This document shows, piece by piece, positions 41,045-59,319 of a stretch of DNA of 64,000 nt. The position numbers and the translations under genes were made by a program. The notes beneath the pieces are model-generated. The model was not told the origin of the DNA, did not search any database, and worked only from the letters and a program-made list of their open reading frames with translations. Positions within the stretch are counted from its first letter, which is position 1; each line of letters starts with the position of its first letter. Origin of the DNA: Jannaschia faecimaris (GTDB lineage: Bacteria > Pseudomonadota > Alphaproteobacteria > Rhodobacterales > Rhodobacteraceae); assembly GCF_900107415.1 (NCBI RefSeq), contig NZ_FNPX01000017.1:1-64000 (forward strand), given 5' to 3'.

Positions 41045-41056
41045 GTTATCGATAAC
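41045..41056. promoter_or_regulatory. LacI-type operator, perfect palindrome
   Basis: GTTATCGATAAC is a perfect 12-bp palindrome with a central CG, as is usual for LacI-family sites. It lies 49 bp upstream of lacI 1 and 9 bp before the -35 box of the transporter promoter. Confidence 0.75.
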
Positions 41057-41064
41057 AAAATTGC

Positions 41065-41093
41065 TTGACAGAACGGGCAGCAGACCGAATGGT
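41065..41093 (+). promoter_or_regulatory. Promoter of the first sugar ABC operon
   Basis: TTGACA at 41065-41070 is a perfect -35. With 17-bp spacing the -10 would be AATGGT (41088-41093), a weak match. It lies between two operator-like palindromes. Confidence 0.55.
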
Positions 41094-41101
41094 AAAGCAA
41101 C

Positions 41102-41113
41102 GTTACCGGTAAA
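41102..41113. promoter_or_regulatory. Second LacI-type operator
   Basis: GTTACCGGTAAA contains the perfect palindrome TTACCGGTAA. It lies just after the predicted transcription start of the transporter operon, 57 bp from the first operator, which suits repression by a LacI protein. Confidence 0.55.
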
Positions 41114-41159
41114 CCAAGGCGGGGAGGCCAAGGATCGGGCACGTATCGGGAGGACGACC

Positions 41160-42653
41160 ATGCAGCCAAGCGACGGCCTTTTCTTCGACAGCATCGTCAA
41201 GACGTTCGGAGGCACACATGCCCTGTCCGGTGTCTCGCTGAAGGTCGAACGCGGCGAGATCGTCGCTCTTCTGGGTGAGAACGGCGCTGGAAAATCAACT
41301 CTGATCAAGGCTTTGGGCGGCATCCATTCCCCCGATAGCGGCGACGTTTTGGTTGATGGTGTACCTTATCGCCACGTCGCCGGTAAAATAAGTCAGAAAC
41401 AGGCCGTCGCCTTCATCCACCAGGATCTGGGTTTGATCGAATGGATGTCCGTGGCCGAGAACATCGCGCTGGCCATAGGATACGTGAAGCGACGCGGGCG
41501 CATCGACTGGCGTGCGACCGAGGCCCGCGCACGGGACGCGCTGGCGCATGTCGAGGCCGATTTCGAGCCGACCACCCGCGTTGCCAATCTCAGCCGGACC
41601 GAGAAATCCCTCGTGGCCATTGCCCGGGCCCTGGCCGTGGAATGCGATTTCCTGGTCTTGGACGAACCCACCGCGTCCTTGCCCGCGGACGAGGTGGAGC
41701 GCCTGTTCCGCGCCCTTCGCCCGCTGCGCGACAAGGGCGTGGGAATGATCTATGTCAGTCACCGGTTGGACGAGATCTTCCAGATTGCCGACCGCGTCGC
41801 CGTTCTGCGCGATGGCAAGATGGTCGGAATGCGCGACATCGCCCACACCAACGCCGAAGACCTGGTCAGTCTGATCGTCGGGCGCAAGGCGCGCGACATC
41901 GCGCTGCCCGATGCACAGGACGGGACCGAGGTTCTGACCGTCGCGAACCTGTCGACCCGTGCCGTGTCGGACGTCAGCTTCAAGGTAAGACGCGGGGAAC
42001 TCGTGGGCCTGGTCGGCCTGCGCGGTGCCGGTCACGAGGATGTGGGTCGGGCGCTGTTTGGCCTGGCGGCGCACACCGGCGAGGTTCTGCTGGATGGATC
42101 GCCCCCCGACCTGACCAACGCACGGACCGCGATGAAATCGGGCATCGGATTCGTCGCGCGGGACCGGGTCGTCGAAAGCATCGCCCCAGCCCTGACGATC
42201 CGCGAGAACGCCTTCATCAACCCCGAAGCGACGGGCCGCAAACTGCTGAGTTTCCTGCGGCCTGCGGTCGAAGATGACATGAGCGTCAAGCTGGGCCGCC
42301 GTGTTGGCCTGTCGCCCAACGACCCGACCCTTGCAATCGAGGCTTTGTCGGGCGGCAACCAGCAGAAGATCGTCGTCGGACGCTGGCTTGACACCGGCCG
42401 GCGGTTCCTGATCGCCGAGGATCCGACCGCGGGCGTCGATGTCGGGGCCAAGGCGGAAATCTACCATCTGCTCTACGAGGTGCTGGCGTCCGGCATGGGC
42501 GTCCTCGTGGTCTCTACGGATTTCGAGGAGGTCGCCAACATCTGCCACCGCGCCATCGTGTTCAGCCGAGGCCGCATCGTCGACGAATTGTCGGGCGTCA
42601 GCCTGTCCACACAATCCCTGATCCAGGCCGCCTCGGCCAGTGATGCAGCCTGA
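41160..42653 (+). CDS. Sugar ABC transporter ATPase with two ATP-binding domains (CUT2)
   Basis: A 497-aa RbsA/XylG-type ATPase. The first half has Walker A GENGAGKSTLIKALGG near residue 40, signature LSRTEKSLVAIARAL and Walker B LVLDEPTASLP. The second half has the degenerate Walker region VGLVGLRGAGHEDVGRALFG and signature LSGGNQQKIVVGRWLDTGRR. The first signature lacks the usual GGQ. It powers monosaccharide import with the permease and binding protein that follow. GGAGGAC precedes the ATG. Confidence 0.92.
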   Translation: MQPSDGLFFDSIVKTFGGTHALSGVSLKVERGEIVALLGENGAGKSTLIKALGGIHSPDSGDVLVDGVPYRHVAGKISQKQAVAFIHQDLGLIEWMSVAENIALAIGYVKRRGRIDWRATEARARDALAHVEADFEPTTRVANLSRTEKSLVAIARALAVECDFLVLDEPTASLPADEVERLFRALRPLRDKGVGMIYVSHRLDEIFQIADRVAVLRDGKMVGMRDIAHTNAEDLVSLIVGRKARDIALPDAQDGTEVLTVANLSTRAVSDVSFKVRRGELVGLVGLRGAGHEDVGRALFGLAAHTGEVLLDGSPPDLTNARTAMKSGIGFVARDRVVESIAPALTIRENAFINPEATGRKLLSFLRPAVEDDMSVKLGRRVGLSPNDPTLAIEALSGGNQQKIVVGRWLDTGRRFLIAEDPTAGVDVGAKAEIYHLLYEVLASGMGVLVVSTDFEEVANICHRAIVFSRGRIVDELSGVSLSTQSLIQAASASDAA

Positions 42654-42668
42654 GCCGGAGCGAACCGC

Positions 42669-43691
42669 ATGAATTCCGTTGAATCCGACGCCCTGGAGCC
42701 GACCCGCGATGAACTGGCTGGCCTGAGCCTCGCATCCAAGGTGATCCGTCTGACCCCGGTCTATGGACTGGTGATCCTGATGGTCGGCCTCATCATCCTG
42801 TTCTCGATCATGCTGCCCAATACGTTCCCGACGGTTCTGAACCTGCGGGCGATCATTTCGGACAAGGCGATCATCGCGCTTCTTGCGCTGGCGGCGATGA
42901 TTCCGATGGTGGCCGGGCGTATCGACCTGACGGTCGGCTATGGCATCGTGCTGTGGCACATCCTCGCCATCTCGCTTCAGACCCTTTACGGCCTCCCGTG
43001 GCCTCTGGCCTGCGTGGTGGTTCTGGCACTGGGTGCGCTGACGGGCATTTTCAACGGCTTCCTCGTCGAAGTCGCCAAGATCGACGCCTTCATTGCCACG
43101 CTGGGCACGGGCACCGTACTTTATGCGCTGGCGCTTTGGCACACAGGCGGGCGGCAGATGGTGGGCGTGCTGCCGCAGGGGTTCTATGACCTCAACGGCA
43201 CCTTCGTCTTCGGCCTGCCGATCACCGGGTTCTATGTGCTGGCGATCACGGTAACACTCTGGCTCGTGCTGGAATATACGCCCGTCGGGCGATATCTCTA
43301 TGCCATCGGGGCAAACCCGAAGGCGGCCGAGCTCAACGGTATCCCCACGCGGAAATTCGTTGTGGGGGCTTTCGTCGTATCGGGCACGCTGACGGCGCTG
43401 GCGGGCGTACTGCTGGCGTCCAAGCTGCGTATCGGACAGGCCAGCGTCGGTCTGGAATTCCTGCTGCCAGCGCTGGTGGGCGCGTTTCTCGGATCCACGA
43501 CGATCAAGCCGGGGCGCGTCAACGTCTGGGGCACAATCGTCGGGGTCGTCATCCTGGCCGTGGGTATTTCCGGCATTCAGCAATTTGGCGGATCCTTCTG
43601 GGTAGAGCCGATGTTCAACGGCCTGACCCTGCTGATCGCTATCGGTATCGCGGGCTATGCCCAGCGCAAAAAGGGCGCGGCCCACAAGTAG
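42669..43691 (+). CDS. Sugar ABC transporter permease (CUT2)
   Basis: A 340-aa BPD_transp_2 permease with about eight to ten hydrophobic helices. Typical segments are IIALLALAAMIPMVAGRIDL-TVGYG, where most relatives read GIDLSVG, GFLVEVAKIDAFIATLGTGT and AIGANPKAAELNGIPTRKFV. It forms the membrane channel for the RbsA-type ATPase just upstream (15 bp apart). The substrate is a monosaccharide or sugar acid that cannot be told from sequence. Confidence 0.9.
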   Translation: MNSVESDALEPTRDELAGLSLASKVIRLTPVYGLVILMVGLIILFSIMLPNTFPTVLNLRAIISDKAIIALLALAAMIPMVAGRIDLTVGYGIVLWHILAISLQTLYGLPWPLACVVVLALGALTGIFNGFLVEVAKIDAFIATLGTGTVLYALALWHTGGRQMVGVLPQGFYDLNGTFVFGLPITGFYVLAITVTLWLVLEYTPVGRYLYAIGANPKAAELNGIPTRKFVVGAFVVSGTLTALAGVLLASKLRIGQASVGLEFLLPALVGAFLGSTTIKPGRVNVWGTIVGVVILAVGISGIQQFGGSFWVEPMFNGLTLLIAIGIAGYAQRKKGAAHK

Positions 43692-43716
43692 CGTTCATTT
43701 CAACGGGAGAGAGATC

Positions 43717-44763
43717 ATGGAAAAGAGAACACTTCTGAAGACCCTGCTGACCACCACGATCGTCGCCGGACTCGGCCTGCCGGCAATCGCGCAGGAGGCC
43801 TTTGATGGGCCTACGACGGGGCCTGCGGCAGCAGCGGACAAGACCATCGTCGTATTGGCGGGGGATCTGAAAAACGGCGGCATCCTGGGGGTCACAAGCG
43901 GCATCGAAGAAGCTGTGGAGGTCATCGGCTGGGACGTGCGCGTCCTCGACGGTGCCGGGTCGGTCCAAGGGCGCACGGGTGCCATCGGCCAGGCTCTGGC
44001 CCTGCAACCCGACGGTATCGTCATCAACGGCTTCGACGCGGTCGAACAGCAGGCGGCACTGGAAGCCGTGGTCGCCGCCGGTGTCCCGATGGTTGCCTGG
44101 CACTCGGGTCCCAAGATCGGTTGCGACGCGCCCGGCGGCATCTTCGCCAACGTCTCGACCGATGCGATGGCCGTCTCCGAAGTGGCGGCCGAATGGGCCA
44201 TGAACGACGGCGGTGACACTGTTGGCGTGGTGATCTTCACCGACAGCACCTATCAGATCGCCATCGACAAGGCCGACCGCATTCAGGAAACGATCGAGGC
44301 CATGGGAGGTGCCGTCCTGGAATACGTCGACACGCCGATCGCCGACACCTCAAGCAGGATGGCCCCCCTGACCACCAGCCTTCTGCAGAAATACGGCGAC
44401 AGCTGGACCCATGCGCTGGCCATCAACGACCTGTATTTCGATTTCATGGGCCCGGCCCTCGCCGCCGCAGGCATTCCGGGCGATGGCGCGCCCAAGGCCG
44501 GCTCGGCCGGGGATGGATCGGAAGCCGCTTTCCAGCGTATTCGCGGGCAGCAGTATCAGGCCATCACCGTGGCCGAGCCGTTGAACCTGCAAGGCTGGCA
44601 ACTGGTGGATGAACTCAACCGCGCCATCCAGGGTGAAACCTGCTCCGGCTATGTCACCACGCCCGCGCTGGTGACCACCGAAGGATTGCAGAAGATGGGC
44701 GACAGCAACGCCTTCGACCCCGACGTGCCCTACCGCGAGGCCTACACGGCGATCTGGAACTGA
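43717..44763 (+). CDS. Periplasmic sugar-binding protein (CUT2)
   Basis: A 348-aa binding protein with a signal peptide (residues 1-25, cut near AIA-QE). The mature part has the Peripla_BP_4 pattern: KTIVVLAGDLKNGGILGVTS, GQALALQPDGIVINGFDAVE and VPMVAWHSGPKIGC. It delivers a sugar to the permease encoded just before it. The order ATPase, permease, binding protein differs from the usual rbs order. A GC hairpin at 44777-44798 follows and may separate this operon from the next transporter. Confidence 0.88.
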   Translation: MEKRTLLKTLLTTTIVAGLGLPAIAQEAFDGPTTGPAAAADKTIVVLAGDLKNGGILGVTSGIEEAVEVIGWDVRVLDGAGSVQGRTGAIGQALALQPDGIVINGFDAVEQQAALEAVVAAGVPMVAWHSGPKIGCDAPGGIFANVSTDAMAVSEVAAEWAMNDGGDTVGVVIFTDSTYQIAIDKADRIQETIEAMGGAVLEYVDTPIADTSSRMAPLTTSLLQKYGDSWTHALAINDLYFDFMGPALAAAGIPGDGAPKAGSAGDGSEAAFQRIRGQQYQAITVAEPLNLQGWQLVDELNRAIQGETCSGYVTTPALVTTEGLQKMGDSNAFDPDVPYREAYTAIWN

Positions 44764-44776
44764 CACCTCACTGACC

Positions 44777-44798: not shown

Positions 44799-44844
44799 CT
44801 TCCAGACCCAAAATGCAAACGATTCCAATAACGAAGGACGCGCG

Positions 44845-45633
44845 ATGAAAGCTCAAGACATGGACGCCGCACCGATCATCGAAATGCGCGGTATCACCAA
44901 GCGTTTCGGCGGGGTGACCGCCCTGAACGGCGTCGATCTGCGCGCCTATGCGGGCGAAGTGCTGGCAATCGTCGGCGATAACGGCGCTGGTAAATCCACA
45001 CTGATCAAGGTGTTGACCGGGGTGTATCAATCCACCGCCGGAGAGATCTTCTTCGAAGGCCGCCCCTTGACGATGAGCAGCCATGCCGACGCCATCAAGA
45101 ACGGCATCGACGCTGTCTACCAGAACCTTGCCATCGCGGACCATCTGACCCCTGCCGAGAACCTGTTTCTGGGGTCGGAGCTGACACGAAAGGTGCTGGG
45201 CATCACCTTCCTGGATAACAAGGCGATGAAGATGCAGGCGACGGCCGTGCTCAAGGACCGGCTGGGTGTCCAGCTCAAGAACATGGACGTCGCCACCGAA
45301 AGCCTTTCGGGCGGCCAACGTCAGGCCGTCGCCATCGCCCGCGCCGTGCGCCATGAGGACTTGAAGGTCCTGGTCATGGACGAGCCCACGGCCGCGCTAG
45401 GGCCTCAGGAAACAGCGCGGACCCTCAAGCTCATCCAGACGCTCAAAGCCCAAGGGTTGGCCGTCATCCTGATCTCCCATGCGCTCGACGACGTGTTCGA
45501 CGTCTCCGACCGCATCCACGTCATGCGGCGTGGCGAATGTGTTGGCGTCGTCCGCACGGCCGCCACCACATCCGAGGAGGTTCTTGGCCTGCTGACAGGG
45601 GCCACGAAAATGGCCAAGGAGGCCATGCTGTGA
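44845..45633 (+). CDS. Sugar ABC transporter ATPase with one ATP-binding domain (FrcA-like)
   Basis: A 262-aa ATPase with one nucleotide-binding domain: Walker A GDNGAGKSTLIKVLTG near residue 48, signature LSGGQRQAVAIARAV, Walker B VLVMDEPTAALGP and the switch His in ILISHALDDV. It resembles FrcA of fructose-type CUT2 systems, which use a single-domain ATPase that dimerises. It is the first gene of the second transporter operon; the permease GTG start overlaps its stop. Confidence 0.92.
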   Translation: MKAQDMDAAPIIEMRGITKRFGGVTALNGVDLRAYAGEVLAIVGDNGAGKSTLIKVLTGVYQSTAGEIFFEGRPLTMSSHADAIKNGIDAVYQNLAIADHLTPAENLFLGSELTRKVLGITFLDNKAMKMQATAVLKDRLGVQLKNMDVATESLSGGQRQAVAIARAVRHEDLKVLVMDEPTAALGPQETARTLKLIQTLKAQGLAVILISHALDDVFDVSDRIHVMRRGECVGVVRTAATTSEEVLGLLTGATKMAKEAML

Positions 45634-46757
45634 CCGATACGACCACACAAAACGCCGCCGCCCCGACCAGCCTGACCGCCCGGATCGAGCCGTATATCGG
45701 CATCCTCGGCCCAATGGTCATGATCGCGATGATCGCGCTTTTCATGGGCGCGGTCGAACCGGCCCGGTATTTCCGCACGTCCAACATCAACCAGATCCTG
45801 CTCGATGCGGCGCTCTATATGCCGATGGCGATGGCGATGACCTTCGTCATCACCCAGCGCGGCATCGATCTGAGCATCGGATCAGTCGCCGCCCTCTCGG
45901 CCATCATCATGGCATTCCTGATCAAGCAGTACGATTTTCACGTCCTGGTCGCCCTGCCGATCTGCATCCTGCTCGGAGCGGGCATGGGCCTGATCAACGG
46001 GCTCGTCATCACCAAGTTCCGGGTGCCCGACCTGATCGGCACGCTGGCGATGGACCTGGTATACCGCGGCTTCGCGCTGGTGCTTGCCAAGGGTCTCGTG
46101 CTGGCCCGCTTTCCCGATCTGATTACCGACATCGGGCGGGGTCAGACCTTCAACATCCTGCCGACTCCGGTGGTCATCGGCGTGCTGACGCTGCTCGGCG
46201 GATATGTTCTGCTGCGCACCACGCATTTCGGACGCTACTCCATCGCCATCGGCTCCAACCCCGAAGCGACGGCGATGACGGGGATAAGCGTCGACCGCCA
46301 CCGCGTCTATGCCTATGTCCTCATGGGCGCGATGGCCGCGCTGGCGGGCGTGATGCTGACGGGCAAGCTCAACGCGGTGCAGGCCACCTCGGCCCCCTAC
46401 TTCAACCTGCACGTCATCGCTGCCGTGGTCGTGGGTGGGACATCGCTTTTCGGCGGTCGCGCATCAATGATCGGCTCGCTGGCGGGGGTGCTGCTTCTGT
46501 CGATGATGATCAACGCCCTGGTCACCCTGCGGATCGAGTTCTTCTGGCAATCCGTCGCGTCGGGCGTCGTCATCATCACTTCGGTGGCGATCTACACCTG
46601 GTTGCAGAAGAAAGACCGCGACGGCGGCGGCGGCCTGCACGCGGCCTTCGCCAGCCCCGACAATCGAAAGCTGGCGGTGATGACCGGCGCGATTGTCGGA
46701 GCGTTGCTGATCCTGCTGGCGCTTGGCGGTCTGACCGCCTCGCCGCCGGCTACTTGA
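45630..46757 (+). CDS. Sugar ABC transporter permease (FrcC-like)
   Basis: A 375-aa BPD_transp_2 permease. It has FVITQRGIDLSIGSVAALSA (the conserved GIDLSIGS motif), GLVITKFRVPDLIGTLAMDL and AIGSNPEATAMTGISVDRHR. About nine membrane helices are visible, with a last one near the C-terminus (MTGAIVGALLILLALGGLTA). The GTG start overlaps the ATPase stop by 4 bp. It pairs with the single-domain ATPase upstream. Confidence 0.9.
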   Translation: MTDTTTQNAAAPTSLTARIEPYIGILGPMVMIAMIALFMGAVEPARYFRTSNINQILLDAALYMPMAMAMTFVITQRGIDLSIGSVAALSAIIMAFLIKQYDFHVLVALPICILLGAGMGLINGLVITKFRVPDLIGTLAMDLVYRGFALVLAKGLVLARFPDLITDIGRGQTFNILPTPVVIGVLTLLGGYVLLRTTHFGRYSIAIGSNPEATAMTGISVDRHRVYAYVLMGAMAALAGVMLTGKLNAVQATSAPYFNLHVIAAVVVGGTSLFGGRASMIGSLAGVLLLSMMINALVTLRIEFFWQSVASGVVIITSVAIYTWLQKKDRDGGGGLHAAFASPDNRKLAVMTGAIVGALLILLALGGLTASPPAT

Positions 46758-46804
46758 ATAATAACCGGGGCATCCCGCCCCAATACTCTCTGGGAGGAGA
46801 CACC

Positions 46805-47938
46805 ATGAAACTTAAGATTCTGCTGATGACGACACTGCTCGCCACGGGCGCTGCCCATGCCGACGGCCACCTGCCGCTCAAGACGATGCCCGACGATGCG
46901 GAGCGCGACTACTGGGTCCCCGAACAGGTCAACGCCGACGGCGCGCTTGAGGCCCTGCAGGCGGTCGTCGGTGCCAAGGCCGTCCCATACAAAGGCACGC
47001 TGGAGAACCCGCTGCAGATCGCACTGATCTACCCCTCTGCCGATACCTCGGACTTCTGGGCCCGCAACTATCTCGCCATGACCAAACGGCTTGAGGAACT
47101 GGGTATCGCCTTCGAGACGACCGAGTTCGCAAGCCGCCAGGTCGAACATTCGCTTCAGGCCACCTATGCGTCGCAAGTCGATCAGGACGCCGACCTTTAC
47201 GATTTCGTCATCTTCGGCCCGTCGGAGCTTGCCACGCAGGCCGACAACATCGACAAATTGGCCGCCAACCCCGACATCACGACGTTCGTATGGGCCTTCC
47301 ACACACCGCTCAAATATCTTGAGAACCAGCCCGCCAACTGGTTCGACTTCTCGTCGGCCGCCGGGGCGCTCATCATCTGCGACTACATGCTTGAACGCCT
47401 GGGCAACGACGTCACCTACGCCATGAACCGTGGCATTCCGGGCATTACCGACAACCAGCGCTCCGGCGACTGGGCCGCCTGTGTCGAGGAAAAGGGAAAC
47501 TGGCAACTGGCCTACGAGCACTACGGTGAATACACCCGCGAAGGCGGGTTCGAGGGCACGTCCCTCATGCTTCAGGCCTACCCCGAGGCGGGCGTGATCC
47601 ATAATGCGAACACCGCGATGGCCATGGGGTCGGTCGAGGCGCAATTGGCCGTCAACAAGGCCGGGGAAGTTTTCTCGACCGGCTGGGGCGGGACGGGTCT
47701 GGAACTCGACGCGATCCGACGCGGCGAACTCGACGCGACACCGATGCGAATGGGCGACGACGTCGGGGCCGCGACGGCCGAGGCGATCAAGTTCCACCTG
47801 GAAGATCGAAGCGACGAGCTGCCCTTCGTCTTCCTCGGCCGCATCCAGATCGCCCACGACGAGATGTCAACGGAAGAATTGGACGCGCTGCAAACCGAAG
47901 CCTTCCGTTTCTCGGGCGTCGGCGCTCTTGAGCGGTAA
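46805..47938 (+). CDS. Periplasmic sugar-binding protein (second CUT2 system)
   Basis: A 377-aa binding protein with a signal peptide (MKLKILLMTTLLATGAAHA). The mature part has LQIALIYPSADTSDFWARNY, VIFGPSELATQADNID and VIHNANTAMAMGSVEAQLAV. The layout matches Peripla_BP_4 proteins, but the first 55 mature residues (LPLKTMPDDAERDYWVPEQV) are an extra N-terminal segment. It probably serves the FrcA/FrcC-like components upstream. GGAGGAGA precedes its ATG. A terminator follows. Confidence 0.87.
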   Translation: MKLKILLMTTLLATGAAHADGHLPLKTMPDDAERDYWVPEQVNADGALEALQAVVGAKAVPYKGTLENPLQIALIYPSADTSDFWARNYLAMTKRLEELGIAFETTEFASRQVEHSLQATYASQVDQDADLYDFVIFGPSELATQADNIDKLAANPDITTFVWAFHTPLKYLENQPANWFDFSSAAGALIICDYMLERLGNDVTYAMNRGIPGITDNQRSGDWAACVEEKGNWQLAYEHYGEYTREGGFEGTSLMLQAYPEAGVIHNANTAMAMGSVEAQLAVNKAGEVFSTGWGGTGLELDAIRRGELDATPMRMGDDVGAATAEAIKFHLEDRSDELPFVFLGRIQIAHDEMSTEELDALQTEAFRFSGVGALER

Positions 47939-47994: not shown

Positions 47995-49008
47995 TCAGCC
48001 GCGCCTGACCGTCGATTGCCCGACCTGCAGAACCGGGGTGATCCGCTCGACGCGTCCCGTCCCGGGGTGCGCCAACAAGTCAAGCACCATCGCCGCCGTC
48101 CGGTCGCCGATATCGACAGGTGACGGATCGACCGTGGTCAGCGTCGGCACGCAGATCCCTGCGATGTCATAGGCACCGAAACCAGCGACCGCCATGGCGT
48201 CCGGAACCGCGACACCGCGCCGCTGACATTCCGTCAATGCCCCGAAAGCCGACAGATCAGACACGCAGATCACAGCCTCTGCATCTGGCTGGGTATCAAG
48301 CAGGTGCGCCATTGCCGCGGCCCCTTCATGCATCGAAATCGGCGGCTGTCCCGCACCGATCAACCGCGTGGCATCCAGGCCCCGCACCTGCATCGCGGCC
48401 ACGAACCCGCGCCGCCGGTCCGCCCCACGCGTATCGCCATCCACGTCGCCGCCGATAAATGCGATCCGGCTGTGCCCCTGCGCCACCAGATGCGCCACCA
48501 GCAAGTCCATGCACGCCGCGTTGGAAAAGCCGACGACATGACCGATGGGGGCCTCGGGCAGGTCCCAGGTCTCGATCACGGGGACGCCCGATTGCGCCAG
48601 CAGGCGGCGCGCCCGTTCGGTATGCCGCCCGCCAGTCACCACGATGGCTTCGGGGCGGCGGCGCAGAAACTCCTCGATCAGCTGCTCCTCGCGCAGGGTG
48701 TCGTAATTGGTATGCCCCAAAAGCACCTGGTACCCCGCCCGCGACAGACGGGTGGTCATCGCTTCCACCGTGCCCGCGAAGTTCGCATTGTTGAGCGAAG
48801 GGATCGTCACCGCCACGAAATGACTGCGCTGGCTGCGCAGGTTGGCTGCCGTGCTGTCGAAAACATAGCCCAACTCTTCGGCCGCCGCATGGATGCGTTG
48901 GCGGGTCTGTTCACCGACGGAAGCATCGCTCTTGAAAGCGCGGCTGACCGTCATCACGGACACTCCGGCGGCCTTGGCCACGTCTTTCATCGTTGGCGTG
49001 CGTCGCAT
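47995..49008 (-). CDS. LacI-family regulator 2
   Basis: A 337-aa regulator with helix-turn-helix TMKDVAKAAGVSVMTVSRAF, then the effector domain (FVAVTIPSLNNANFAGTVEA, RIAFIGGDVDGDTRGADRRR, VPDAMAVAGFGAYDIAGICV). The recognition helix begins MTVSR, as in LacI 1. The start MRRTPTMKDV at 49008 is chosen because the ten codons before it are not conserved and cover an operator-like site. It is convergent with the second CUT2 transporter, so it may control that transporter or other island genes. Effector unknown. Confidence 0.88.
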   Translation of the reverse strand: MRRTPTMKDVAKAAGVSVMTVSRAFKSDASVGEQTRQRIHAAAEELGYVFDSTAANLRSQRSHFVAVTIPSLNNANFAGTVEAMTTRLSRAGYQVLLGHTNYDTLREEQLIEEFLRRRPEAIVVTGGRHTERARRLLAQSGVPVIETWDLPEAPIGHVVGFSNAACMDLLVAHLVAQGHSRIAFIGGDVDGDTRGADRRRGFVAAMQVRGLDATRLIGAGQPPISMHEGAAAMAHLLDTQPDAEAVICVSDLSAFGALTECQRRGVAVPDAMAVAGFGAYDIAGICVPTLTTVDPSPVDIGDRTAAMVLDLLAHPGTGRVERITPVLQVGQSTVRRG

Positions 49009-51284: not shown

Positions 51285-51314
51285 CCACATAAACAGCAAC
51301 TCAGAGAGAGACAT

Positions 51315-52556
51315 ATGCTTAACTTCAGAACCACGCTCACAGGTGCCACGCTGGCCGCGCTTGCCGCGGGAACCGCACTCGCCAATCCCTACGCCCCATA
51401 CAAAGGGACGACCCTGATCGTAGACTTCCCCGCACAGCCATATTACGACGCGGCGATAAACGTGCTGGACCAGTTCACCGAAGAGACCGGCATCGAGGTC
51501 GGGGTCGATCAGCTTCAATACCTGCGCATGCGGGAGCGTCAGACGCTGGAGCTGGCCAAGTATTTCATGAACCCCGCGCCGGCCGACCCGACCTATGACC
51601 AGTCGGACCTGATCACCGGCTACGTGCAGAACATCGGTGTCGCAGGCGGCGAAAAGGGCTATCTGCCCGGCGCGCTCGGCTTCGCCTAGGGCATCCCCTT
51701 CGGCTCCGAGACATCGGTCCTCGCCTACCGCAAGGACATCTTCGAAAAGCACGGAATCGAGGTGCTCACCAACTACGACGAGCTTCAGGAAATCCCCCGC
51801 CAGATCCCCGAGGTGGAGCCGGGCATGGACGGCATGGCGTCGCGCGCGGCCTCCGGCCACCAGGCCAGCCATGCGTTCCTTTTGCACCTCGCCCCGCTGG
51901 GCGGGCGCATCTTCGACGAACGGTGGAACCCGATCATCAACAACGAGGCCGGCGTTGCCGCCGCCAACGCACTCAAGACGATCGTGGATTGCGGCCCCGA
52001 GGGCGGCGGCACGACTTTTGGCCCCGCCGGAGCGGCCCCCTTCAAGCAGGGTCAGGCCGCGATGTTCATGGACTCGATCGCTTTCGCCGCCGGGTTTGAA
52101 GACCCGACCGAGTCGACGGTCGCGGGCAACGTCGGTCACGCCATGCACCCCGAAGGCGTGCGCCGTGGCAGCCAGACCGGCGGGTTCGGCCTCGCCATTC
52201 CGGCGAACGCGCCCAGTAAGGAAGCGGCCTTCCTGATGATCCAGTGGCTGACCTGCAAGAAAGGTGACCTGGCAGTGGCCATGGAGGGCGGAAACCCCTC
52301 GCGCTTCTCGACCTACCGGAACGCGGAGTTGAACGAGAAGTCCCCCTACTCCGCCACCTTCGGCGAAGCGCTGCAGTTCGCCGATCCCGACTGGTGCCCG
52401 ATCATCCCCGCCTCGGGGTCAATCAACGCCGACATCGGTACCACGATGAGCCAGGTCCTGACCGAGGGTCTCGACATCCAGGAAGCACTGCACGGCGTGG
52501 CCGAGCGCACCCGCGCGACCATGCAACAAGAGGGTTACTACGCCTGGCAGGAGTGA
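51315..52556 (+). pseudogene. CUT1 sugar-binding protein with an in-frame amber stop
   Basis: One frame runs from a signal peptide (MLNFRTTLTGATLAALAAGT) through the SBP_bac_1 fold (IVDFPAQPYYDAAINVLDQF) to the end (LHGVAERTRATMQQEGYYAW), but TAG at 51687-51689 interrupts it. The context is LGFA-stop-GIPFGSETSVLAYRK. Relatives commonly have Gln in that place, and CAG to TAG is one base change. The product would be cut at 124 residues. A coding frame continues past the stop without other damage, so the lesion looks recent. Confidence 0.88.
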
Positions 52557-52685
52557 CCTGCACCCGGTAACGACGTCCGGTCCCCGATCCGGGGGCTGGG
52601 CCCACGGCCTCCACGTCCGACGCAGATCACCCGTAGATCACCCGCGCATCCGACGTGAAATCCGTCCCAGTTCTGGACGCCCGAG

Positions 52686-53600
52686 ATGATCGCCAACGCC
52701 AACCGCCTTACACCTTATCTTTTCCTTGCGCCTGCGGTTCTGATCCTTGCCGTCGCGCTGATGTATCCGGTCGGCTACATGATATGGGCCAGCTTCCTCG
52801 ACTGGAATCCGAGCCAGCGGATCGGCGAGGCGGAGTTCGTCGGCCTTCGCAATTACATCAACCTTTTCAGCGAAGAAGCCTTTCTGGAAAGCATGGGCGT
52901 GACCCTGCGCTTTGCCGCCGTCGCCGTCTCTGTCGAGATGGTCCTGGGCGTCAGCTTGGCCCTGTTGCTGGACCGTCAGCTCAAGGGTATGACGATCCTT
53001 CGGACGGTGTTCATCCTGCCGATGATGATCGCCCCGATCATGGTCGGGTTGATGTGGCGCGACATGTACCATCCGACCGTCGGCATCCTGAATCGTACAT
53101 TGAAATCAATCAGCTTGGACCCGGTCCCTTGGCTCTCCGACGGCGGCTGGGCCTTCACGTCTGTGGCTATCGCAGACGTCTGGCAACGGACGCCCTTCAT
53201 AATCTTCCTGTCCTTAGCCGCGCTCCAGTCGCTTCCCTGCTCGGCCATGGAGGCCGCGCGCATCGACGGCGCTACGGGCTGGCAGATGATCGTCTACATC
53301 AAGCTGCCGCTAATGCTTCCAGCGCTGCTCGTGACCGCGCTCCTGCGCCTGATCGACGCCTTCAAGGTGCTGGAGGTCATCCTTGTAATGACCAACGGCG
53401 GACCGGGGCTATCAACTGAGATCTTTGCCTTGCGAATCTCCCGAACGGCCAGTGAATTCAAAGAGCTGGGCTACACCGCGGCGATGTCCAACCTCCTCTT
53501 GATTTTGCTGATGATCCTGACGCTCGCCATGTTCTTCTATGGCAAGGTCATGGACGCCCGAGCCGCCCGCATCCGCGCCGAATCCGAGGAGGCCCACTGA
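52686..53600 (+). CDS. CUT1 sugar ABC transporter permease (first), intact
   Basis: A 304-aa MalF-like permease with six predicted helices (LTPYLFLAPAVLILAVALMY first). It carries the EAA loop MEAARIDGATGWQMIVYIKL-PLMLP near residue 195, and MTNGGPGLSTEIFALRISRT before the last helix. It should pair with the next permease to form the channel, but its ATPase, binding protein and partner permease genes are all damaged. It is thus probably useless, although intact. Its stop overlaps the next start. Confidence 0.88.
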   Translation: MIANANRLTPYLFLAPAVLILAVALMYPVGYMIWASFLDWNPSQRIGEAEFVGLRNYINLFSEEAFLESMGVTLRFAAVAVSVEMVLGVSLALLLDRQLKGMTILRTVFILPMMIAPIMVGLMWRDMYHPTVGILNRTLKSISLDPVPWLSDGGWAFTSVAIADVWQRTPFIIFLSLAALQSLPCSAMEAARIDGATGWQMIVYIKLPLMLPALLVTALLRLIDAFKVLEVILVMTNGGPGLSTEIFALRISRTASEFKELGYTAAMSNLLLILLMILTLAMFFYGKVMDARAARIRAESEEAH

Positions 53601-54473
53601 TGGCCAAACCCACCACACTCGCGGCGAACCCCGCGTTCTATGCCTTGCTGGTCGCACTGACCGTGATGTCAGTGGGGCCGATTTTTCTGATGCTGGCGAC
53701 CTCGTTCAAGCTGAACGTGGACATCATGTCCGACACCTCGGCCCTGCTGTTCTTCCCCACGATCCGAAACTACGAGACCGCGCTCTGCGACATGCTATGG
53801 TGCGAGGTCGAGCACGTTCGTCGCTGCGACCCGACCTTCGGGCGCGCATTGGTCAATTCGCTGATCGTGGCGACCGTTTCGACGGCGCTCACGCTCATCA
53901 TCGGGTGCGTGGCGGCCTATGCGCTTGTGCGGTTCCGCCTCATGGGGCGCGATACGGTGTCCATGACCACGCTGATGATGCGCATGGTCCCGCCCGCGGT
54001 CCTGTTGGTGTCGGTGTTTCGGAATCTGGACGTTCCAGTACGGCATCGACGGCACACGCTTTGGCCTCATTCTCAATTACACGGCGATGAACCTGCCCTT
54101 CGTAATCTGGATATTGCAGTCGTTCATTGTGCGGGTGCCAATCCAGCTGGAGGAAGCCGCACGGATGGACGGGGCCAATCCGTTCCAGGCGTTCTTCATG
54201 GTGGTTCTTCCGCTCATCAAGCCCGGTCTTGCCGCGGCCGCCATTTTCACCTTCTGCGTGGCGGGGAACGAGTTCCTTCTGGGCAACGCGCTGGCCGACC
54301 GGAACAGCCGGACGGTGCCGGTGACCAAAGTGAACTCCCTCACCGAATATGATATCGATTGGGGGGCGATCATGGCGACAGGGATGTTGCTGGCGATCCC
54401 GCCGGTCATCTTCACCTTCGTCGCCTCGCGCCAGATCATCACCGGCATGACCGTTGGGGCCGTAAAGGGGTGA
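53600..54473 (+). pseudogene. CUT1 sugar ABC transporter permease (second), frameshifted
   Basis: A MalG-like permease. The first 140 residues (LVALTVMSVGPIFLMLATSF, LIIGCVAAYALVRFRLMGRD) are in frame with the start. After PPAVLLVSVF the frame changes near 54014-54021. The continuation GIWTFQYGIDGTRFGLILNY, then MNLPFVIWILQSFIVRVPIQ and the EAA loop LEEAARMDGANPFQAFFMVV are in another frame, ending at 54473. One base too many or too few in GTTTCGG explains it. Confidence 0.88.
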
Positions 54474-54479
54474 GATCCG

Positions 54480-55170
54480 ATTTGGGAGTGGCTCCTCCAA
54501 CCGATTGACAGCAGCCGGGTCCATGACCTGGGGGACGTCATCAAGCTGCATGGACGGATCATGATGCTGTCCTGGGGCGTGATAGCGCCGCTGGCCGTGC
54601 TGATCACGCGCTATATGAAAGTGATCCCGGGGCAGGACTACCCGGCCAATCTGGACAGTCAGGTCTGGTGGAACATTCACCGCTTCGGGCAGATCACCGC
54701 CGTACTCATCATGTTCGTAGGGGTCGCAATCATCTTGCAGTCCAAGGGCGCGGACTCCACCACCTGAACACTTTGGCTGCACCACTGGATGGGTTGGGCG
54801 TTAACCAGTTTCGGAGCGGTACAGGCGGCCTCCGGTTTTCTGGGCGGGACCAAGGGCGGGCCCACCGACCCCGTGGGTGAGCAGGGCGACCACTACGACG
54901 ACCGTGCGCCGGATCGTGTTCGAAGCAGTACACAAAGGGCTTGGTTACGGAGTGCTCGCCTTGGGCGCAATCACGATACTGACAGGCATGTGGCAAGCGA
55001 ACGGCCCGATCTGGATGTGCGTCGTGGTTTTGGGATGGTGGGCGTTGCTTTTGCTGATCGCCTGGTTCCTGCAACGGCTTGGACTTGCGATGGACAGCTA
55101 CCGTGCGATTTGGGGGCCGTGCGCGCCGCGCCCGCGCCGCATCGACGAAGGCCACTCACCCGGAGAGTGA
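54480..55170 (+). pseudogene. Cytochrome b561-family gene, decayed
   Basis: The order of family segments is preserved: WEWLLQPIDSSRVHDLGDVI, KLHGRIMMLSWGVIAPLAVL, WWNIHRFGQITAVLIMFVGV, LHHWMGWALTSFGAVQ, GGTKGGPTDP, then FEAVHKGLGYGVLALGAITI and GLAMDSYRAIWGP. Three faults are visible. The codon where the start belongs is ATT (54480), 6 bp after the permease stop. A TGA at 54765-54767 breaks the frame. The frame changes near 54900, in the sequence after GDHYD. Heme His residues (KLHGR, NIHRF, LHHW) remain. No functional product can be made. Confidence 0.8.
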
Positions 55171-55175
55171 CCAGC

Positions 55176-55202
55176 AAAAAAGGGCACCCTGACAGGGTGC
55201 CC
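55176..55202 (-). terminator. Strong terminator of the idonate operon
   Basis: GGGCACCCT (55182-55190) pairs perfectly with AGGGTGCCC (55194-55202) with a 3-nt loop. On the minus strand it is followed by TTTTTT (55181-55176), 24 bp after the last gene of the operon ending at 55227. Confidence 0.9.
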
Positions 55203-55226
55203 GACGCTTGCTCAAATCCGTTCGGC

Positions 55227-55568
55227 TCAATTGCCTTGGAGTTGATAGTGATGCGCGGTTGTAACGTGATGATGAACGACGCCGGTATAGAAGCGCCCCA
55301 GCACCGACTGCGTCGCTTCGCGCCCCTCGATCCGCACCGGCGACTCGAGCGCCACCTGAACCGCGTCCATGTCAGGATACTCCGTGGCGAGGATCACCGG
55401 AAACTCGGGCGCGCCTTCGTCGCGGCTGTCGCCGAACGTGACGTGAACGGCGGTTGCGCCCGGCATCCGCTTCCACACGGGCACCAGTTCTTTCAGAACC
55501 GCGGCGCGGAACGCCTCGGTCTGGCCGTCGTGGACGGTACCCTGAAACAGGGCGTAGCGCGTGATCAT
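55227..55568 (-). CDS. ABM/EthD-like small alpha-beta barrel protein
   Basis: A 113-aa protein: MITRYALFQGTVHDGQTEAF, ELVPVWKRMPGATAVHVTFG and EFPVILATEYPDMDAVQVAL. The pattern is that of the dimeric alpha/beta barrel (ABM or EthD-like) fold. The His-rich C-terminus (VVHHHVTTAHHYQ) could bind a metal. Its ATG overlaps the stop of the dehydrogenase gene upstream by 4 bp, and it is the last gene of a four-gene operon with a strong terminator. A role in sugar-acid breakdown is inferred only from context. Confidence 0.75.
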   Translation of the reverse strand: MITRYALFQGTVHDGQTEAFRAAVLKELVPVWKRMPGATAVHVTFGDSRDEGAPEFPVILATEYPDMDAVQVALESPVRIEGREATQSVLGRFYTGVVHHHVTTAHHYQLQGN

Positions 55569-56449
55569 TGGTCCAACTCCTCGGGGCCATTGAAGAATTC
55601 CATCAGCGCCGCCTGATCCTCGCCGCCCAGACCGGCGGCCGTCAGCAGGCGATGCACCTCCGCGCAGAGTGCAGTCATCGGCATCGGCGTATTGGTGCGC
55701 CGGGCCAGATCCTGTGCGCCGTTCAAATCCTTGACCATGTTGTCGATGCGGCCCGTGCGGCGGTAGTCTCGGGCGACATAGCGCGGCATGTATTCTTGCA
55801 GGATCGCGCTGTCGGCCCGACCGCCCTTCAGCGCCTGCGGAATCTTGGCCGCATCGACACCGGCGTCTTCGGCCAGCTTGGTGGCTTCGGCCACGGCAAG
55901 GAAATTCAGACCGCACAGCACCTGATTGATGAGCTTAGTCGTCTGCCCGGCCCCTGCCGGACCCATATGCGTGATGTTCGACGCGACATGCTGCAATGCC
56001 ATGCGCGCGTCGGCCACGTCCTTCTCTGCGCCGCCCGCCATCAGCGTAAGCTCACCGACGAGGGCCTTGGGCGCGCCGCCCGACAAGGGGCTGTCGACCC
56101 AGCGCAGACCGGCTTCGACCGCTTTGGCGGCGAGGTCTTTCGTCGCCTCGGGATCGATAGACGACATGTCGATAATCAGGGTGCCGGGCCGGGCCCCCTC
56201 GGCAACGCCGCCTGCGCCGAAGACGGCGCTGTCCACGATATGCGGTCCGTTGAGCGAGATGATGACGACGTCCGATACCGCCGCGGCCTCGGCGGCACTG
56301 CCGGCGGCGGTTCCGCCCTTGTCGACGAGCGCCTGCACGACATCGGCATTCAGGTCGAATACGGCCAACCTCTGGCCGGTTTCCAGAAGGCGGGTGCCGA
56401 TCGCGCCGCCCATGGCCCCTGCGCCGATCAAGGCGAGTCCCAGGCTCAA
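55565..56449 (-). CDS. 3-hydroxyisobutyrate dehydrogenase family protein
   Basis: A 294-aa beta-hydroxyacid dehydrogenase. The N-terminal Rossmann motif is LALIGAGAMGGAIGTRLLET; WVDSPLSGGAPKALVGELTL carries the substrate-binding segment; GAGQTTKLINQVLCGLNFLA holds the catalytic Lys. The family includes 3-hydroxyisobutyrate, tartronate semialdehyde and related acid dehydrogenases. Its position after gluconokinase suggests a sugar-acid or 3-hydroxyacid substrate. The ATG overlaps the gntK stop by 4 bp. Confidence 0.88.
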   Translation of the reverse strand: MSLGLALIGAGAMGGAIGTRLLETGQRLAVFDLNADVVQALVDKGGTAAGSAAEAAAVSDVVIISLNGPHIVDSAVFGAGGVAEGARPGTLIIDMSSIDPEATKDLAAKAVEAGLRWVDSPLSGGAPKALVGELTLMAGGAEKDVADARMALQHVASNITHMGPAGAGQTTKLINQVLCGLNFLAVAEATKLAEDAGVDAAKIPQALKGGRADSAILQEYMPRYVARDYRRTGRIDNMVKDLNGAQDLARRTNTPMPMTALCAEVHRLLTAAGLGGEDQAALMEFFNGPEELDQ

Positions 56450-56949
56450 CGGTCGATTACCGTGACCGCGTCGACTGTGGCCGCGATCAAAGCCTCGGGC
56501 GGCTGGTCGATGTCCAGGGTCACGGCGCGTTCGTCCGTCCCGGGCATCTCCAGCGTGGCAAGCTGGCTGTCGAGCAGTTTCGTCGGCATAAAATGCCCAT
56601 CGCGTTTGCTCATCCGGTCGGACAACACCGCGTAGCTGCCGTGCAGATGCGCAAAAACGACGGGCAGCCCGGCGGCAGCGATGATCCTGTCACGATAGAC
56701 GCGCTTGAGCGCGGAACAGGCGACGACACGGGGCGGTTCGCCTTGCCGCAGGCTCTCGCCGACGGCTTGCAACCATGGCCAGCGGTCCTCGTCGGTCAGA
56801 GGTGTTCCGGCGCTCATCTTCTCAATGTTGGCCTTCGGATGAAGATCGTCGCCGTCGATAAACGTTCCGCCCAGCGCCTGTGCAAGGCCCTTGCCGACGG
56901 TGCTCTTGCCGCAGCCCGATACGCCCATGACGACATAAAAGCCGGTCAT
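56446..56949 (-). CDS. gntK: Gluconokinase
   Basis: A 167-aa gluconokinase of the GntK/IdnK type. The P-loop is GVSGCGKSTVGKGLA at about 9-23; GGTFIDGDDLHPKANIEKM is the substrate-binding block; VVACSALKRVYRDRIIAAA and GHFMPTKLLDSQLATLEMP are also typical. It phosphorylates gluconate to 6-phosphogluconate, which enters the Entner-Doudoroff or pentose phosphate route. Start and stop each overlap a neighbour by 4 bp, so it is co-translated with the SDR gene before it and the dehydrogenase after it. Confidence 0.95.
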   Translation of the reverse strand: MTGFYVVMGVSGCGKSTVGKGLAQALGGTFIDGDDLHPKANIEKMSAGTPLTDEDRWPWLQAVGESLRQGEPPRVVACSALKRVYRDRIIAAAGLPVVFAHLHGSYAVLSDRMSKRDGHFMPTKLLDSQLATLEMPGTDERAVTLDIDQPPEALIAATVDAVTVIDR

Positions 56950-57713
56950 AGCGATGCGGTGATCCCGCCGTCGACATAAACCACGGTGCCGTTCACAAAG
57001 CTGGACGCGGGCGACGACAGGAAGATGCAGGTCCCGACCAACTCCTCCACGTTGCCCCAGCGGCCTGCGGGCGTACGGTTCGACAGCCACTCAGTGAACT
57101 TCGGATCGTCGACCAACGCCTTGTTGAGCGGGGTGTCGAAATAGCCGGGTGCCAGCCCGTTGCATTGCAGGCCGTACTTGGCCCAATCGGTCGCCATGCC
57201 CTTGGTCAGGTTCGCCACGGCACCCTTTGTCGCTGTGTAAGGCGCAATGCCCGGGCGGGCGAGTGCCGTCTGGACCGAGCAGATGTTGACGATTTTTCCC
57301 GCCCCGCGCTTGATCATGTGGCGCGCGACCGCCTGGCCGACATGGAAGACCGAAGCGATGTTGGTTTGCAGCAAACGCTCGAACGCGTCCGCCGGGAAAT
57401 CCTCCAACGGGGTGCGGTGCTGCATGCCTGCGTTGTTGACCAGGATGTTGATCGGACCGCTTTCCGCCTCGAACCCGTCGACCGCAGCACGGACGCCGTC
57501 GTGATCGGTGGCGTCGAAAACCAGCGCAGCGACATGCGCCCCTTCGGCACGAAGGGTCTTGGCGGCAGCCTCCAGCTTGGCTTCGTCGCGCCCGTTGAGC
57601 ACAATCGAGGCCCCGGCCGCAGCCAACCCGCGGGCAAGCGCGAAGCCGATCCCCTGCGACGACCCGGTGATGAGCGCGCGCTTGCCGGTCAGATCGAAAA
57701 GAGAGAGGCTCAT
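56946..57713 (-). CDS. idnO: SDR oxidoreductase, 5-keto-gluconate reductase-like
   Basis: A 255-aa short-chain dehydrogenase. TGSSQGIGFALARGLAAAGA is the cofactor motif (residues 15-34), NNAGMQHRTPLEDF follows, and the catalytic set is Ser in NICSVQTALARPG with Tyr and Lys in YTATKGAVANLTKGM. The C-terminal FVNGTVVYVDGGITASL is standard. It closely resembles IdnO, which reduces 5-keto-D-gluconate to D-gluconate with NADPH. It is the first gene of the four-gene operon and is divergent from the idonate dehydrogenase gene; an operator-like site lies between. Confidence 0.85.
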   Translation of the reverse strand: MSLSLFDLTGKRALITGSSQGIGFALARGLAAAGASIVLNGRDEAKLEAAAKTLRAEGAHVAALVFDATDHDGVRAAVDGFEAESGPINILVNNAGMQHRTPLEDFPADAFERLLQTNIASVFHVGQAVARHMIKRGAGKIVNICSVQTALARPGIAPYTATKGAVANLTKGMATDWAKYGLQCNGLAPGYFDTPLNKALVDDPKFTEWLSNRTPAGRWGNVEELVGTCIFLSSPASSFVNGTVVYVDGGITASL

Positions 57714-57755
57714 GGCAGGGTCCTTGGTCTCGACAGGGGAAGATGTGCCGTTTAT

Positions 57756-57767
57756 GTTATCGTTAAC
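57756..57767. promoter_or_regulatory. LacI-type operator between idnO and idnD
   Basis: GTTATCGTTAAC, a 12-bp near-palindrome with only one mismatched pair. It lies 43 bp upstream of idnO and 39 bp upstream of idnD, so one protein could control both. Confidence 0.7.
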
Positions 57768-57806
57768 AACCCGAGTCAACAGCGCCGCTTGTCGGAAGGA
57801 CATCCC

Positions 57807-58850
57807 ATGACAGAGCAGACCAAAGCCATCGTCATCCACGCCCCCCATGACTTGCGGATCGAAACACGGGACGTGACAGCCCCCACGCCCGGCCAGGTGC
57901 AGATCACCATGGCCGCAGGCGGCATCTGCGGTTCGGACCTGCATTATTATCACAACGGCGGCTTCGGCACGATCAAGCTGCGTGAGCCGATGGTGCTGGG
58001 CCACGAAGTCGCGGGGCACATCACCGCTTTGGGCGATGGGGTAACAGGGCTGGAGGTCGGGCAACTGGTCGCGGTGTCGCCATCGCGCCCCTGCAACAGC
58101 TGCAAATTCTGCCTGGAAGGGGCGCAGAACCAGTGCCTGAACATGCGCTTCTACGGATCAGCGATGCCCTTCCCGCATATACAGGGCGCGTTCAGACAAG
58201 TGCTCAACGTCGATCCGTCGCAATGCGCGATCGCCATTGGACTGACTGCCGGCGAGGCGGCGATGGCCGAACCGTTGGCCGTATGCCTTCACGCGACGCG
58301 ACGGGCCGGGAACCTCGTGGGCAAGTCGGTTCTTGTGACGGGCTGCGGGCCGATCGGCATCCTGTCGATCATCTGTGCCCGCCGCGCGGGCGCGGATTTC
58401 ATCGTGGCAACTGACCTGTCGGATTTCACGCTGGCGATGGCCAAGCGTGTGGGTGCGGACCTGACCATCAACATGGGGGCCGCGTCCGACGGGCTGGCGC
58501 AATTCACAGCCGACAAGGGGACGTTCGACGTTCTGTACGAATGTTCGGGCGCGGCCCCGGCGCTGACGGCGGGCATCCACGCAATGCGTCCGGGCGGCAC
58601 GATCATGCAGTTGGGTCTGGGTGGAGACATGTCGCTGCCGATGCAGGCGATCACCGCGAAGGAGCTTTCGCTGAAGGGCTCGTTCCGGTTTCACGGGGAA
58701 TTCCACACCGGCGTCAGCCTGATGCAGAAGGGCCTGATCGACGTGAAACCGTTGATCACGCACACGGTCGGCATCGACGATGCGGTGGCGGGGTTCGATC
58801 TTGCGGGCGACCGCAGTCAGACGATGAAGGCGCAGATCAGCTTCGCCTGA
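57807..58850 (+). CDS. idnD: L-idonate 5-dehydrogenase
   Basis: A 347-aa zinc alcohol dehydrogenase. Catalytic zinc residues are Cys41 (GGICGSDLHYYHNGG) and His66 with Glu67 (GHEVAGH); the structural zinc cysteines are 96, 99, 102 and 110 (PCNSCKFCLEGAQNQC). The NAD motif is VLVTGCGPIGILSIICARRA. The HYYHNGGFG segment is typical of IdnD. It oxidises L-idonate to 5-keto-gluconate, the substrate of IdnO. GGAAGGA precedes the ATG. It is divergent from idnO. Confidence 0.88.
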   Translation: MTEQTKAIVIHAPHDLRIETRDVTAPTPGQVQITMAAGGICGSDLHYYHNGGFGTIKLREPMVLGHEVAGHITALGDGVTGLEVGQLVAVSPSRPCNSCKFCLEGAQNQCLNMRFYGSAMPFPHIQGAFRQVLNVDPSQCAIAIGLTAGEAAMAEPLAVCLHATRRAGNLVGKSVLVTGCGPIGILSIICARRAGADFIVATDLSDFTLAMAKRVGADLTINMGAASDGLAQFTADKGTFDVLYECSGAAPALTAGIHAMRPGGTIMQLGLGGDMSLPMQAITAKELSLKGSFRFHGEFHTGVSLMQKGLIDVKPLITHTVGIDDAVAGFDLAGDRSQTMKAQISFA

Positions 58851-58859
58851 GCAACCGGC

Positions 58860-59276
58860 CTAAACCTCCGCCCCGATGGCGCGCAGCGCGGCCTCGGCGA
58901 CGGCGATGTCCTGCTCTCCGGTACCCGATCCAACACCGATCCCGCCAAGCAGATGGCCGTCCAGCCGGATCGGCAGGCCACCGGGCAGCCCGGTGATGCC
59001 CCCGTCGGTGGCAGCGGCGATGGCGGGGCGCACCACCTCGGGTATGAGGACAGTCGCCCCGCCGGTGCTGGCCGCTGTCATGGCCTTGGCAAGGGCGGAT
59101 TTGCGGCTGAGGAACTTGGCCCCGATCATCCGCACTTCGGCCAACACCTCACCGGCAGCATCGACGATCACAATGCACTGCGGCTGACCTATTTCCTCGG
59201 CCTTGGCGACGCCCGCGCGAAGCATTTCCATCGCACCGGTATGGGTCAGGATGCGTGTCGCGGCGGTATAGTGCAT
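58860..59276 (-). CDS. GlcG/HbpS heme-binding-like protein
   Basis: A 138-aa protein of the GlcG/HbpS (DUF336) family: MHYTAATRILTHTGAMEMLR, CIVIVDAAGEVLAEVRMIGA, AASTGGATVLIPEVVRPAI and the hallmark GLPGGLPIRLDGHLLGGIGV. Some members bind heme and others occur beside glycolate or aldonate genes; function is generally unknown. It is convergent with idnD and divergent from the SMP-30 lactonase gene, with an operator-like site between. The start at MHYTAATRI is chosen over the longer frame. Confidence 0.85.
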   Translation of the reverse strand: MHYTAATRILTHTGAMEMLRAGVAKAEEIGQPQCIVIVDAAGEVLAEVRMIGAKFLSRKSALAKAMTAASTGGATVLIPEVVRPAIAAATDGGITGLPGGLPIRLDGHLLGGIGVGSGTGEQDIAVAEAALRAIGAEV

Positions 59277-59307
59277 GGGAGGCCTTCCGGGTTTGACGCA
59301 GGAAAGT

Positions 59308-59319
59308 GTTATCGATACC
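59308..59319. promoter_or_regulatory. LacI-type operator before the SMP-30 gene
   Basis: GTTATCGATACC differs from the perfect palindrome at 41045-41056 at one base. It lies 36 bp before the SMP-30 gene and 31 bp before the divergent GlcG-like gene. Confidence 0.65.

Follow-up and report, generated by a model that had tools for sequence, protein, structure and literature searches.

A predicted sugar-acid regulon in Jannaschia faecimaris with two classes of LacI-type operator

Results

We analyzed a sugar-acid gene island, and the predicted LacI-type operators within it, on contig NZ_FNPX01000017.1 of the alphaproteobacterium Jannaschia faecimaris; the window is the 64-kb stretch from position 1 to 64,000, and the genome scans reported below cover 3.81 Mb on 48 contigs. 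Two GntR/IdnR-like repressors are encoded on the minus strand by lacI1 (39989-40996) and lacI2 (47995-49008), and the plus strand carries two ribose-type sugar ATP-binding cassette (ABC) transporters, abcA1-perm1-sbp1 (41160-44763) and abcA2-perm2-sbp2 (44845-47938). A third regulator gene, lacI3 (49048-50077, minus strand), is broken, as is most of a MalK/UgpC-type ABC transporter (50203-54473, plus strand). The catabolic genes begin with three on the minus strand: a GarR/GlxR-like reductase (55565-56449; 228.6 bits with the 2-hydroxy-3-oxopropionate reductase model, below the cut-off of 397), the gluconokinase gene gntK (56446-56955, approximate start; TIGR01313, 195.2 bits, above the cut-off of 113.75), and idnO (56946-57713), a short-chain dehydrogenase/reductase (SDR) of the gluconate 5-dehydrogenase (5-ketogluconate reductase) type that scores 481 bits with SDR subfamily NF005711, above its cut-off, and 317.5 bits with gluconate 5-dehydrogenase NF005983, below the cut-off of 408. 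They are followed by the L-idonate 5-dehydrogenase-like gene idnD (57807-58850, plus strand; NF007375, 347.5 bits, below the cut-off of 469), a GlcG/HbpS-like gene (glcG, 58860-59276, minus strand; PF03928), and an SMP-30/gluconolactonase-like gene (smp30, 59356-60252, plus strand; PF08450). By location, the likely targets are gluconate/idonate genes, gluconokinase scoring above its cut-off and the two dehydrogenases below theirs as best specific matches.

LacI 1 and LacI 2 match LacI-family models over their full length, with both the helix-turn-helix (HTH) and the sugar-binding domain. The top three NCBIfam models for each are Pseudomonas GntR, which is the best for both (221.8 bits for LacI 1 and 282.8 for LacI 2, cut-off 400), IdnR (188.1 and 189.3 bits, cut-off 500), and Escherichia coli GntR (176.9 and 148.8 bits, cut-off 433). 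They differ at LacI residue 17, the residue before MTVSR and the AA-15 of Camas et al. 2010, which is lysine in LacI 1 (K17, GVSKMTVSR) and valine in LacI 2 (V17, GVSVMTVSR).

The sites are 12-bp palindromes with a central CpG, and we use NT-2, after Camas et al., for the base adjoining that CpG. Seven had been reported in the initial annotation, and all seven read exactly as placed: GTTATCGATAAC of the TCGA class (41045-41056) and GTTACCGGTAAA of the CCGG class (41102-41113), 57 bp apart in the lacI1/abcA1 gap, the second near the putative abcA1 start site; GTTAACGATACC directly upstream of lacI2 (49025-49036), identical in the relatives G019 and G011; GTAAACGTTAAC and GTTATCGTTATC on the lacI3 side (50113-50124) and the malK side (50170-50181) of the lacI3/malK gap, 57 bp apart here against 59 bp in both G019 and G011; GTTATCGTTAAC in the divergent idnO/idnD promoter (57756-57767); and GTTATCGATACC in the divergent glcG/smp30 promoter (59308-59319). 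All seven count as intergenic on the condition that 49008 is the start of lacI2 and 59356 that of smp30. Beyond these seven, a decayed operator, GCAAACGATTCC, lies between sbp1 and abcA2 (44815-44826); its equivalent in G019 is a good site, GTTAACGATACC, and GGTATCGTTAAC stands before abcA2 in G019 and G361.

Several scans indicate that this clustering is not random. A weight matrix built from the seven sites places all of them within the top 8 of the window, and Markov-1 simulations (n = 100) gave a mean of 0.2 and a maximum of 2 sites scoring at least as high as the weakest of the seven. On leave-one-out ranking, six of the seven keep ranks 1-8, while 41102 drops to rank 18 owing to its CCGG centre, yet it is conserved in relatives. 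With at most one mismatch, GTTAWCGWTAAC occurs at 19 places in the whole genome, 7 of them in 36610-59319 and 12 elsewhere, against 5 places for the reversed-pattern control, and 41045 and 57756 are the only perfect matches. The 7 are 36610 and all of the seven sites except 41102, which has two mismatches. GTTAWCGWTAAC was derived from the sites themselves, and the independent tests are the leave-one-out ranking and the other genomes. The motif is therefore rare elsewhere and clustered in the window, rather than spread at the chance frequency that the initial annotation had allowed for. We considered 36610 as an eighth operator and rejected it as a probable chance match, as it lies inside the end of a kinase open reading frame (ORF) and is not found in G019. 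The 12 matches elsewhere were likewise set aside as regulon members: of the eight viewed by eye, several lie in unrelated ORFs, and two of the 12, on contigs C3 and C47, have G at NT-2.

For comparison we drew on stretches of genomes that encode LacI 1 or LacI 2. Among 394 family genomes, counting the present one, 44 have a LacI 2 and 24 a LacI 1 match at E <=1e-75, and a class-wide search recovered LacI 1 in only 2 of 385 genomes, again counting its own. Thirty stretches have an idnO match of at least 70%; with G027 (contig end) and G446b (the other end of the idnO counted in G446) set aside, the 200 bp upstream of idnO contain a site having no more than one outer mismatch in 27 of 28, G058 being the one without, which makes 28 of 29 with the window. 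G019 also keeps the sites before glcG/smp30, lacI2 and lacI3/malK, and G011 those before lacI2 and lacI3/malK. In 80 named loci (1.24 Mb) chosen by LacI protein homology alone, GTTANCGNTAAC has 78 perfect and 70 one-mismatch occurrences, compared with 0 and 38 for a reversed-halves control. Given this enrichment and the promoter conservation, we regard these sites as predicted operators of this LacI subfamily. The sites thus recur at orthologous promoters, on which the initial annotation had made its proposal depend, and the conserved central-CpG palindromes stand at regulator and target promoters alike, the pattern of a LacI regulon. Some loci also show paired sites. GTTACCGGTCAC/GTGACCGGTAAC operators are spaced by roughly two helical turns (22-23 bp) where an R17 LacI is encoded beside malK-type transporters (L281:15460-15493, L282:15524-15557, L293:7790-7823, L294:16571-16605), and overlapping pairs 14 bp apart occur at idnO promoters (L055:8875-8900, L281:3511-3536), comparable to the overlapping sites of E. 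coli gntKU mentioned in PMC4052901.

The lacI1/abcA1 promoter has a conserved layout. The putative -35 of the abcA1 operon, CTTGACA (41064-41070, plus strand), begins 7 bp downstream of the 41045 operator, and the window shares it with all 12 aligned relatives. All 11 close lacI1 orthologues (at least 59% identity; 9 genera counting the window) have a TCGA-like operator 6-8 bp before CTTGACA and a CCGG-like one starting 54-58 bp after the first. The distal operator is CCGG in 9 of the 11 (TCGG in G351, CCGA in G409) and the proximal one is C-free in 10 (TCGG in G003). Where abcA1 occurs without an adjoining lacI1, in G434 and G233, both the TCGA site and CTTGACA survive intact, and the CCGG site is reduced to CCGGTAAA; these genomes, 89% and 71% complete, may share a single loss. 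We also considered the 57-bp spacing as a fixed ruler for a DNA loop and rejected it, since spacings of 54-58 bp in the close orthologues and 59 bp at lacI3/malK in G019 and G011 are not helically locked. Of four promoters scanned for sigma-70 elements, only that of idnD gave a match, a promoter-like TCGACA-17-TATGTT (57730-57758, plus strand; 1 found, 0.1 expected) whose -10 overlaps the operator, as expected for repression. The other three gave no match, and the scan missed the CTTGACA at 41064, where the putative -35 rests on conservation.

Across the related loci, NT-2 tracks residue 17 of the repressor: lysine (LacI 1) goes with CCGG, valine (LacI 2 and LacI 3) with TCGA-like sites, and glutamate (a GapR-like LacI encoded elsewhere in the genome) presumably with GCGC. 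In the 45 of 80 loci that combine methionine at residue 18 with one or more perfect sites (the other 35 being left out), C is the majority base at NT-2 in 10 of 11 loci with lysine or arginine and in 1 of 34 others, with ties included and broken by the first seen. Among 105 proteins, a CCGG-type site lies nearby in 32 of 40 lysine or arginine rows and in 5 of 65 others, and two of those five (L060 and L061) combine CCGG and TCGA operators in a pair, as lacI1 does.

The glutamate class lies elsewhere in the genome. Of its 11 LacI matches, xMTVSR is found only in LacI 1, LacI 2, the broken LacI 3, and a GapR-like E17 protein at C12:250890 (G000, as are the contig positions that follow). Perfect sites with G at NT-2 (GTTAGCGCTAAC-type, GCGC/GCGG) precede edd (C42:215836), zwf (C6:47943) and gapA (C22:43925); the EDD and G6PD families were confirmed by Pfam, and gapA was assigned by eye with an internal start codon taken. 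The E17 protein's own locus (L300) has no G-class site. Further G-class sites at C3:50597 and C47:93261 lie beside genes of unclear relation. In a hand count over 11 genomes, which leaves out one G269 site and all G361 sites, 75 of 76 sites were listed: G at NT-2 is absent from all 29 in the island and present on at least one half in 41 of the 46 outside it. None of the listed island sites is therefore of the class found before zwf, edd and gapA.

The initial annotation had counted three LacI proteins beside the sites; the third gene is broken together with most genes of its transporter. Within 49048-55241, lacI3, malK, the binding-protein gene, the second permease gene and a b561-like gene (named by eye) are broken here, whereas G019 and G011 have them intact; the operators at 50113 and 50170 are still present. 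Measured against G011, the window shows a frame-breaking gap of 2 bases in lacI3 and single-base gaps in malK and the second permease gene. A gap of 87 bases lies in the gene for the binding protein, which has an interrupted frame as well, and the b561-like gene has two gaps, of 2 and 62 bases; LacI 2, the first permease and idnO are gap-free. The comparison of G011 with G019 shows zero frame-breaking gaps, and neither comparison counts a gntK row. The HTH turn of LacI 3 reads AWVI where G019 and G011 have AGVS, and its N-terminal piece matches GntR/IdnR models best. In the broken genes, third codon positions still take most of the substitutions, which dates the decay as recent if it is not an assembly fault.

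Discussion

On the evidence of sequence and conservation, we consider it highly probable that these palindromes are operators of a local L-idonate/gluconate regulon under GntR/IdnR-like LacI repressors. The initial annotation's proposal of LacI-type operators at lacI genes and a single local regulon serving transport and catabolism of sugar acids is thereby upheld for idnD, idnO, gntK, the SMP-30 lactonase and the ABC transporters. We infer that two paralogous GntR/IdnR-like repressors would hold the regulon down until a sugar acid releases them, the candidate effectors being gluconate, 5-ketogluconate, idonate and 6-phosphogluconate. LacI 2 (V17) would act on TCGA-like sites at its own promoter and those of idnO-gntK/idnD, glcG/smp30 and lacI3/malK, the last formerly shared with LacI 3. 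The target of LacI 1 (K17) would be the CCGG-like site where its ABC operon starts, with the adjacent TCGA site probably a second one, so that the abcA1 promoter, lying between one operator of each class, may come under joint control.

How far the two repressors overlap bears on this assignment of operator classes to proteins, which we favor with some reserve. In G351 and G269, LacI 1 and an E17 LacI are present and LacI 2 and LacI 3 were not found; the TCGA-like operator at lacI1 is kept, and the idnO/idnD site is GTTACCGATAAC, half of each class. The TCGA sites of these genomes and the central-CpG palindrome GTTATCGGTAAC in the E. coli gntR/gntK gap, before gntK (E. coli GntR being K17), suggest that LacI 1 probably tolerates TCGA sites. 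TCGA would then probably be the shared class and CCGG the class of LacI 1. Two genomes fit this poorly: G222, with a TCGA site at idnO and no LacI 2 found, and G179. The initial annotation had seen one shared motif and, from the common MTVSR, plausibly overlapping specificity. The common scaffold stands, divided into two NT-2 classes that track residue 17; MTVSR itself is no evidence of overlap, since the E17 LacI that has it probably goes with another operator class, and the likely partial overlap of LacI 1 and LacI 2 is instead indicated by G351 and G269. One attractive possibility, which we advance tentatively and with slightly more doubt than confidence, is that related LacI repressors in one genome use a GTTA-N-CG-N-TAAC scaffold and are separated by NT-2 as read by residue 17 (valine, T/A; lysine, C; glutamate, G), and that the abcA1 transporter promoter is a conserved two-key gate combining a private LacI 1 operator with one shared by LacI 1 and LacI 2.

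Several observations weigh against parts of this interpretation. The NCBIfam scores of LacI 1 and LacI 2 lie under the GntR and IdnR equivalog cut-offs, and for this reason we call neither protein GntR or IdnR; the C-terminal piece of LacI 3 scores 57.6 bits with CytR and 57.4 with GntR. The lacI2 of G179, with P17, carries a CCGG site (GTTACCGGTAAC) at its own promoter, and lacI1 of G179 and G149, with K17, has only GTTAACGATAAC. None of 15 distant lacI1 homologues (41-45% identity) has the mixed pair, 6 having CCGG, 2 WCGW and 7 nothing at one mismatch, and the E. coli idnD/idnK gap lacks this 12-mer at two mismatches. Finally, the link of lysine or arginine to C amounts to 4-5 independent switches and is not significant once corrected for the tree (median p 0.5, range 0.125-1), with comparisons agreeing 2.7 and disagreeing 0.4 times on average.

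The non-significant tree-corrected test also favors a simpler view, in which LacI 1 and LacI 2 bind all sites equally and the CCGG/TCGA difference is drift. That E. coli GntR recognises IdnR sites, as stated in PMC4052901, and that G351 and G269 retain their TCGA-like and half-and-half sites point the same way. We nevertheless think it unlikely, because the class order at lacI1/abcA1 is kept in 9 genera, the CCGG site has decayed and the TCGA site been kept where lacI1 is missing, and the raw counts have the classes tracking residue 17. Far less probable is that the sites belong to the GapR-like E17 central-carbon regulator rather than to the local LacI proteins. This protein has MTVSR too, and GTTAGCGCTAAC-type sites do precede edd, zwf and gapA, but the G-at-NT-2 sites lie outside the island and no listed island site carries G. 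Ravcheev et al. 2014 (PMC4052901) describe GapR of Rhodobacteraceae as a global central-carbon regulator with a 20-bp palindrome, unlike the local island repressors, and include zwf, edd and gapA in its regulon. These are the genes with GCGC/GCGG sites here, and GapR is likewise a LacI-type regulator; the E17 protein is thus presumably GapR and, judging from the site and gene lists, would pair with the operator class at edd, zwf and gapA. That the palindromes arose by chance can practically be dismissed: 36610 illustrates that single matches can arise in this way, but 8 were observed including it against 0.2 expected, and the sites are conserved at orthologous promoters.

The predicted regulon is a local GntR/IdnR-like one of known kind, and what is notable about it is that its operators fall into classes and that one promoter mixes them. 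Like E. coli GntR/IdnR, it has a LacI-family paralogous pair and adjoining gluconokinase, idnD and idnO, and it shares the KMTVSR helix. Identity to the E. coli proteins is 31-33% for GntR and 29-31% for IdnR, and the island differs in having ABC transporters instead of GntU/IdnT, one V17 paralogue and two operator classes. The GntR proteins of Pseudomonas plecoglossicida and Pseudomonas aeruginosa resemble ours in family, as the best NCBIfam model, and in their footprinted central-CpG operators (PMC5902321, PMC12195362), and that of P. aeruginosa is reported to be released by gluconate and 6-phosphogluconate (PMC5902321). Unlike the island sites, those described in these papers have an AGCGCT core, with G at NT-2, and control gntP and the regulator's own gene, as well as gntK in P. 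plecoglossicida. The residue-17 rule extends the known work of Camas et al. (PMC2978694), who describe AA-15 and AA-16 (LacI residues 17 and 18) as setting specificity and NT-2 as correlating with AA-55, AA-15 and AA-5, AA-55 ranking above AA-15; AA-15 and NT-2 are linked there and, in raw counts, also here, where AA-15 alone was compared. For Rhodobacteraceae, PMC4052901 was the sole directly relevant paper found, and the regulon may already stand in its supplement or in RegPrecise.

Our analysis proposes regulators for a sugar-acid regulon of the Rhodobacteraceae. It also carries a warning that a common MTVSR in the recognition helix need not mean common operators. With the same half-sites and a difference of one base pair and one residue, the island may be a test case in nature for the way paralogous repressors stay free of cross-talk.

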